Shown here one piece after another: positions 28,651 to 30,840 of a stretch of 64,000 nucleotides of DNA. Source of the stretch: Fibrobacter sp. UWB13 (lineage in GTDB: Bacteria > Fibrobacterota > Fibrobacteria > Fibrobacterales > Fibrobacteraceae). Position numbers and translations under genes: made by a program. The notes beneath the pieces were generated by a model that was not told the origin of the DNA, ran no database searches, and worked only from the letters and a program-made list of their open reading frames with translations. Position 1 is the first letter of the stretch; each line of letters opens with the position of its first letter. The stretch covers positions 310,001 to 374,000 of the forward strand of contig NZ_FXAX01000001.1 in assembly GCF_900177805.1 (NCBI RefSeq), written 5' to 3'.

Positions 28651-30840
28651 CTATAGATCCAACGACATTTGATCTTCCGCGGGCTTTGCCGTATTGCTCA
28701 CGGCATCAGCGGGCGCGCGGTCTTCGCTGGCGTTTGCCCCATCCTCGCTTTCATCGGCATTAGCAATCTGCGCCATAAGCCATGCTTCGTCGTGCACGGG
28801 AATTCCGAGCTCGTTTGCCTTGGTGAGCTTGGAACCTGCCGCTTCGCCTGCCAAAACCCAGCTAGTCTTTTTACTGACGGAGCCGGAGACCTTGCCGCCG
28901 TTCTCTTCGATGAGCTTGCGCGCTTCATCGCGGTCCATGTTCGGGAGCGTTCCCGTGATGACTGCCGTTTGCCCTTGGAACAATGTTTTGACAACGCCCT
29001 TGAATTCCGTCGGGAGTCCAAGCGCCACGAGTTCATCAATTTCGTTCGTGTAGAGCGGCGTGTGGAAAAATTCGTAAACGGATTTTCCGATGCGTTCGCC
29101 GACGTCGGTCACATTTTGCAGTTCCTCGACCGTAGCCGTGCGGATTTTTTCGAGTGTGCGGAAATGCTTCGCTATGTTTCGGGCGCTGGTGCGGCCTACA
29201 AAGCGGATGCCGAGACCGTGCAACAGGTTTTCGAGGCTCTTCTGTTTCGAAGCTTCAATAGCATCGAACACATTCTTAGCGCTCTTCTTCGCCATGCGTT
29301 CCTGCGATTCTAGGTCTTCGAGCGTGAGGCGGTAAAGGTCAGGGATGCGCTTGATTTTGCCAGTGGCAAGGAGGCTTGCGATAAGCGCTGGCCCGAGATT
29401 TTCGATGTTCATCGCTTCACGGCTTACGAAATGCTCGAACAAACATTGCACTTGTGCCTTGCAATGCAAATTCTCGCAGCGCAAAATCACTTCGCCGTCG
29501 ATGTGCGTGAGTGGCTCGCCGCATTCCGGGCATTTCTCCGGAGCCACGACGGGGGAGGCGCCGGCGGGGCGCAGCTCGCGTTTGACGTCGGTGATTTTCG
29601 GGATGATCTCGCCACCTTTCTCTACGCCGACTGTGTCGCCGTAGTGCAAGTCAAGCCTTGCCACTTCGTCGAAGTTGTGGAGGGTGGCGCGCTTTACGGT
29701 CGTGCCGGCGAGGCGCACGGGTGCGAGATTTGCCACCGGCGTCACGGCACCGGTGCGGCCGACTTGGAATTCTACAGACAAAAGCGGCGTGTAAGCACGT
29801 TCCGCCTTGAACTTGTAGGCGATTGCCCAGCGCGGGCTCTTGCTTGTGCTGCCGAGTTCTCGCTGCCGCTGCAAATCGTTCAGCTTCACGACCATGCCGT
29901 CAATGTCGAACGGGAGGCTGTCGCGGCTTGCGCCAATCTTCTCAGAAATCGCCATGATTTCATCGACCGTATCGGCGGTCCAGTAATCGTTCGTATGGAA
30001 TCCGAGGCGTTTGAGCTGTTTCAAGTTCTCTTCGTGAGTCTTGTTGTTGCTCTGCGGAATGTGGTACGCAAAAAAGCGCATCGGGCGCGTCTTGCATTCG
30101 GCAACGCTCTTGAGCTTAAGCGAACCCGAAACCGTATTGCGGCAGTTCTGGAACGTCTTCTTGTTTTCCAAGATGAACTGTTCGTTCAATCGTTCAAATG
30201 CTTCGCGTTCCATGTAAACTTCACCGCGGACTTCGAACGTTCCCTGCGGAATCTCGCTCGGGTCAATCTTCAATTTCTTCGCATCAAAGTATTCAGGAAT
30301 ATCCGCAATTGTGAGCGCATTCAACGTCACGTCATCGCCCTGAGCACCATCGCCACGAGTCGCCGCCTGCTTCAGACGACCATTCTCGTAAACCACCGAA
30401 AGGCTAACCCCGTCGATCTTCCTCTCGCAAATCCACGTCGCGCGCTTTTTACCCTGCGCGCTGCCTTTCTCGTCATCCTGAGCGCGAATGCGCGAAGGAT
30501 CCAGTGAAGTCTCGAGACTCGCAATCCCTTCTTCCGCAGCCTTCACAAACTCGCGCATTTCTTCTTCGCTGTACACGTTTGCGATGCTGAGCATCGGCAC
30601 CGCATGCGCCACCTTCGCGAAATCGTTCGTGAGGTCGCTACCGACCTTCTGCGTGAGCGAACCCTTCCCGCGCAATTCCGGATACTTCGCCTCAAGCGCT
30701 TCCATCTCCTTGAGTCCAAAGTCAAAATCTTGGTCGCTCATGGGGGAGACCCCGTCCTTGTAATAAAGACGGCTAGCTTCTTCCAGTTGTTTCTTTAATT
30801 CAAAATAGCGGGTACGGTCAATATCTTTCTGCTCACTCAT
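28651..30840 (-). CDS. ligA: NAD-dependent DNA ligase
   Basis: 729 residues from the ATG at 30840, which is 7 bases after a TATATT with no ribosome-binding site. Domain order: Ia ([15 protein letters not shown]), adenylation domain with nucleophile Lys141 in KIDG, OB fold, four-Cys zinc finger (CPECGEPL...CENLHCKAQ), helix-hairpin-helix repeats, BRCT domain (about 615-690), and an acidic tail. It seals nicks in replication and repair. Residues about 107-134 ([20 protein letters not shown]) are an insert relative to E. coli LigA as I recall it, and it is encoded by a dispersed repeat at 30469-30514. Confidence 0.95.
30469..30514. repeat. Dispersed CTCGTCATCCTGAGCG repeat inside ligA
   Basis: Core CTCGTCATCCTGAGCG, then CGAAGGATCCAGTGAAG, matches the intergenic copy at 42472-42506. 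It keeps the ligA frame open. Confidence 0.7.

Follow-up and report, generated by a model that had tools for sequence, protein, structure and literature searches.

Palindromic repeats within genes

CGTC-tagged palindromic repeats (REPs) form a superfamily that spans five phyla and includes the elements RPE-4 and RPE-6 (Di Nocera et al. 2013, PMC3733652). Its members share an unpaired CGTC (or TGTC, CCTC) head, a stem that opens with AT and a tail that is mostly CCA. The stem is 8-9 bp long and the loop 4-5 bases, with exceptions reported for loop length. The repeats occur mainly as head-to-head dimers and are not associated with transposase genes. REPs are also found inside many genes, with many in repair genes and one in a DNA ligase of O. 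terrae, and two Xanthomonas recB genes carry REPs at about the same site. The idea that certain loops tolerate REPs is already part of that work (PMC3733652).

The CGTC-type REP is the closest known kind for an element inserted in the ligA gene of Fibrobacter sp. UWB13. The repeats in Fibrobacter have the same CGTC or TGTC head, AT-opening stem and CCA tail; most are intergenic, some lie in genes that include repair genes, and they lack a flanking transposase. However, the phylum of Fibrobacter is absent from the list in PMC3733652, the apical part, about 4 to 30 bases long, often forms a stem peculiar to the copy, most copies appear to be single with few head-to-head pairs, and the same loops are reused throughout the genus.

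RPE-4 and RPE-6 of Rickettsia are likewise CGTC-tagged hairpins inserted in frame in housekeeping genes, a link that runs through the superfamily of PMC3733652. Fibrobacter, in contrast, is a gut bacterium of another phylum and not an intracellular parasite, and several types of repeat occupy a single hot loop. The GTAG REPs that accompany RAYT transposases are also short dispersed hairpins, some of them in genes, but the tag in Fibrobacter is CGTC or TGTC and no association with RAYT was seen in the UWB13 genome. The O. terrae ligase offers a precedent for a repeat in a ligase gene and the Xanthomonas recB genes for different repeats at about one site, although these are single cases, whereas refilling recurs over dozens of Fibrobacter species. 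The open-licence literature yielded no description of CGTC REPs in Fibrobacter, or of the same loops being refilled by several repeat classes across a genus, which is not proof of novelty; what appears to be new is the scale, with the same loops refilled repeatedly across one genus.

The repeat in ligA

The window, which is the whole 64,000-nucleotide stretch of UWB13 DNA that was analysed, contains the following features:

28651..30840, minus strand: ligA, NAD-dependent DNA ligase, 729 aa (NCBIfam NF005932/TIGR00575 above cut-off)
28651..28740, minus strand: LigA C-terminal tail, the second length-variable part, ending in QMSLDL (QLSLF in most relatives)
30436..30528, minus strand: hypervariable LigA loop, from a helix to the catalytic strand WICERKIDG (27 lengths in 59 LigAs of the genus; 26 unrelated clusters)
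30451..30501, minus strand: LigA stretch predicted to be disordered, model residues 113-129, mostly repeat-encoded (AlphaFold2 pLDDT <50)
30471..30505, plus strand: CGTC-tagged palindromic repeat (REP) within ligA, with head CGTC, arms ATCC..GGAT, apical stem GCGC-GAAT-GCGC and tail CCAGT
42471..42514, plus strand: another complete copy, apparently intergenic (no ORF of >=120 aa spans it)
19782..19910, plus strand: degenerate intergenic cluster in which two 23-base partial heads (CTCGTCATCCTGAGGCTCCGCTT) precede one repeat head plus a loose tail

The protein is a clear LigA. Its model resembles known LigA structures (3baa, for instance, with a Z of 33.3 and an rmsd of 1.3 across 238 residues), and the named relatives are those of Fibrobacter succinogenes and Fibrobacter sp. 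Positions 30469-30514 of the plus strand read CTCGTCATCCTGAGCGCGAATGCGCGAAGGATCCAGTGAAGTCTCG. The repeat lies on the strand opposite to the gene, and the ligA frame stays open through it. In the AlphaFold model, the disordered residues 113-129 sit between the helix at 91-111 and a strand, at 135-141, which runs up to the catalytic KIDG.

The first-pass annotation had described a dispersed palindromic repeat, inserted in frame in the essential ligA gene and seen again between genes, and both points are borne out by the open frame, by 52 strict copies in the genome against none in the control, and by the apparently intergenic copy at 42471-42514. Its figure of about 25 added residues roughly fits the loop as a whole, which is some 21 residues longer than the loop of the closest short allele (GIAALGERAT), that of the 98% identical LigA from the genome G001; the repeat proper, at about 35 bases, accounts for only about 12 residues, placed just before KIDG. 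The inserted residues are not conserved in LigA of distant phyla: the E. coli protein has a gap at this position of the alignment, and the Fibrobacter intestinalis group and the related outgroup Fibrobacteres have a compact loop devoid of the extra residues. The ligA insertion shares with the Rickettsia palindromic elements its position in frame in a coding gene and its absence from orthologues.

The C-terminal tail that follows the BRCT domain also varies in length among the relatives and ends nearly always in QLSLF, QTSLF or QMSLDL, a motif that we take to resemble a sliding-clamp-binding peptide.

Copies of the repeat in the genome

The dispersed repeat reads CGTC-ATCCTGAG...GAAGGAT-CCA, of which 30471-30505 is an exact copy. 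Within the window, the 16-base head CTCGTCATCCTGAGCG is found exactly at 30469-30484 and 19828-19843 and nearly exactly at 42470, and six matches with up to three mismatches compare with 0.48 expected. The segment GAAGGATCCAGT occurs exactly at 30494-30505 and 42501-42512. Full copies of the repeat in the window are those at 30471-30505 and 42471-42514. At 19782-19843, partial head copies of 23 bases are arranged in tandem directly upstream of the degenerate copy.

In the whole genome (3.80 Mb in 10 contigs), the exact-arm pattern GTCATCCTGAGCG-N0-20-GAAGGATCC has 21 matches, including 30472-30502, and the looser pattern GTCATCCTGAGN4-34GAAGGATC has 52, a count that rests on this strict pattern; the reversed control gave none in either case. 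Copies are present in 58 of 61 Fibrobacter genomes, again with no match to a control pattern. Among 21 aligned copies, the base before GTC is C or T in 20, and the tail is CCA in 19 and CCT in two, the CC itself being set by the search pattern, as is the ATCC...GGAT stem opening (complementary AT) found in all copies. The strict test found no partner within 120 bases for 42 of the 52 copies, although degenerate partners could escape it.

The inner part between the arms has a sequence of its own in each copy and is nevertheless self-complementary. Across 28 distinct inner sequences, the longest stem averages 3.68 bp, compared to 2.94 bp after shuffling and 2.60 bp when the right halves are swapped among copies, and the observed value was never reached in 500 controls of each kind. 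The short forms correspond roughly to a stem of 8-9 bp with a loop of 4-5 bases, and many copies have a longer, variable apical stem. Folded as single-stranded DNA, the ligA copy showed no unusual stability (z -1.0), so the case stands on repetition and not on energy.

The ligase loop across the genus

Among 59 distinct Fibrobacter LigA proteins, the loop between its conserved anchors is 10 to 77 residues long. Apart from the C-terminal tail, the only other strongly variable region, the remainder of the protein is almost constant in length. On a LigA tree built without the loop, at least 36 changes of loop sequence are required; the tree is a quick one and many of the relatives are metagenome bins, and the loops counted are not phylogenetically independent of one another.

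Of 58 distinct loop DNAs, 20 contain a strict GTCA-tagged inverted repeat, compared to a mean of 0.92 (max 5) in shuffled sequences and 1.22 (max 4) elsewhere in ligA. The repeats in these loops belong to at least seven REP sequence types, in both orientations, including GTCATCCTGAGCG, GTCATTCCCGGC, GTCATCCCGGCC, GTCATTGCGAGGC, GTCATTCTGGAG, GTCATGCCCGCC and GTCACCCTGGACC. The remaining 38 loops have no strict REP, and part of the variation must therefore come from other repeats or from ordinary drift. Some of these loops are filled by heptad arrays, (GACGARA)n, and the ligA gene of the genome G004 contains a tandem duplication of part of the repeat. Filled and empty alleles are too divergent for exact insertion junctions to be read.

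Near-identical long loops are shared by LigAs that lie far apart on the tree (L071 versus L026, L066 and L097), a likeness that suggests transfer of the loop or the gene, or a binning error.

Other genes and other repeats

Most of the 52 copies in the UWB13 genome lie outside genes. The first-pass annotation had proposed a search of all coding genes for the repeat; a survey of the 52 pattern matches places 12 of them inside core genes: ligA, hemA, hemC, tilS, mnmE, secA, a modF-like ABC protein gene, hrpA, an rlmL-like methyltransferase gene (two copies) and a glycosyltransferase gene (two copies). The supposition that such insertions are rare outside Rickettsia is not upheld, given a superfamily that reaches five phyla with many copies in genes (PMC3733652) and the frequency of the repeat in Fibrobacter core genes.

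The copies in genes are read in five registers and in both orientations, yielding peptides such as LDPS..AQDD, HPERS..VEGS, VILS..KSKDP and GSF..LRMT or GSF..AQDD, in addition to those of the fifth register. No single peptide is thus favoured, which speaks against selection for one peptide. Comparison of orthologues shows the same kind of length variation as in LigA: HemA has a single loop of this kind, for which 30 genomes give 22 lengths, and MnmE has two main variable-length loops, while two occur in the glycosyltransferase and about five in the RlmL-like protein. When the window was compared with two close relatives, only three of 40 genes, ligA among them, had internal length changes of at least five residues, indicating that only certain loops, and not the whole proteome, behave in this way. 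In a metallochaperone-like GTPase (27012-28271, minus strand), a His/Asp-rich stretch differs in length among close relatives.

The (GACGARA)n heptad arrays constitute a second class of dispersed repeat, present in 35 of 41 genomes of the genus with up to 135 overlapping matches and none in the control. They often adjoin REPs and have been seen in L250-L261 and in the loops of ligA, mnmE, tilS and the ABC protein. No strict array of period 5 to 11 was found in the window at the threshold used. An intergenic region at 31480-31570 consists of imperfect seven-base units (CTAATAA CTAGTGA ...) around a GC-rich hairpin and is possibly another element of the heptad type.

Proposed spread and survival of the repeats

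The insert in ligA is probably a CGTC-type REP that spread through Fibrobacter, landed in a tolerant, exposed loop and is translated as about 12 harmless residues. The recurrence of the repeats, their frame and their location are observed, and we infer a history of spreading and purging behind this pattern. REPs and related arrays would be copied to new sites by some process, presumably acting in trans, because most genomes in the genus lack a Y1 transposase. Insertions that break the frame or the fold would be lost, and this purging would act almost everywhere within genes. In-frame insertions would survive in a few tolerant, flexible loops, which would then accumulate repeats, and later duplication, slippage and recombination between repeats may remodel the loop, as in G004. 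The ligA repeat, being in frame and free of stop codons, would be transcribed and translated with no serious harm to the enzyme.

RAYT was considered as the mover, and a search with Pfam PF01797 in the UWB13 genome and 40 others found a Y1 gene in just 13 of the 41. The only Y1 gene of UWB13 itself is IS200-like and has no full REP copy within 1.5 kb on either side. A Y1 transposase is unlikely to be the general mover, since 28 of the 41 genomes have none, including the nearly complete genome G014, which nevertheless carries 40 copies of the repeat.

The hot loops might instead reflect the preference of a putative enzyme for certain sequences or for single-stranded DNA, rather than tolerance. 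The refilling of the same few loops again and again, by two unrelated classes of repeat (REPs and GACGARA heptad arrays), is what such targeted entry would produce. However, the loops of different genes have no evident target in common, most copies are outside genes, insertion occurs in either orientation, and Y1 genes are present in only 13 of 41 genomes, the one in UWB13 having no full REP copy in its 1.5 kb flanks, so that this explanation is unlikely.

It is quite improbable that the insertions are selected because they alter the activity of the enzyme, for instance to give a mutator or a regulated ligase. Di Nocera et al. speculate on a change of activity for REPs in repair genes, where many REPs are found (PMC3733652), and several of the decorated Fibrobacter genes act on DNA or RNA (ligA, tilS, mnmE, hrpA and the rlmL-like gene). 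Nevertheless, hemA, hemC, secA and the glycosyltransferase gene also carry copies, the inserts differ freely among species in sequence, length, orientation and frame, and short alleles persist in close relatives.

A hairpin in an essential gene could also be mobile and intron-like, or act as a translational bypass element, and be removed or skipped, but the ligA loops compared are all in frame and free of stop codons (their extraction favoured intact frames), which would be needless if the insert were skipped, making this reading very improbable. Finally, the model shows the loop as disordered and many alleles have no clear repeat, as would be expected of a fast-evolving linker that matches the repeat by chance, a reading already contradicted by the controls: the 16- and 12-base arms are exact and correctly spaced with no control match genome-wide, 20 of 58 loops carry the repeat against about one expected, and four other genes show the same pattern.

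Significance

Selfish DNA that is translated within essential proteins has so far been regarded mostly as a peculiarity of Rickettsia or as a set of isolated cases. Here a single genus provides dozens of naturally occurring variants of one ligase, whose loops all differ and are often derived from repeats. These alleles make it possible to test by what means CGTC repeats spread in the absence of a dedicated transposase, what restricts the places at which proteins accept them, and whether the inserts ever become useful. It is a bolder and rather doubtful suggestion that Fibrobacter has an active, yet-to-be-found way of copying transposase-less hairpins and heptad arrays into a few core-protein loops, which would then be standing sites, throughout the genus, of new peptide derived from selfish DNA. 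Selfish DNA, on the preferred reading, repeatedly writes new peptide into the core proteins of Fibrobacter.
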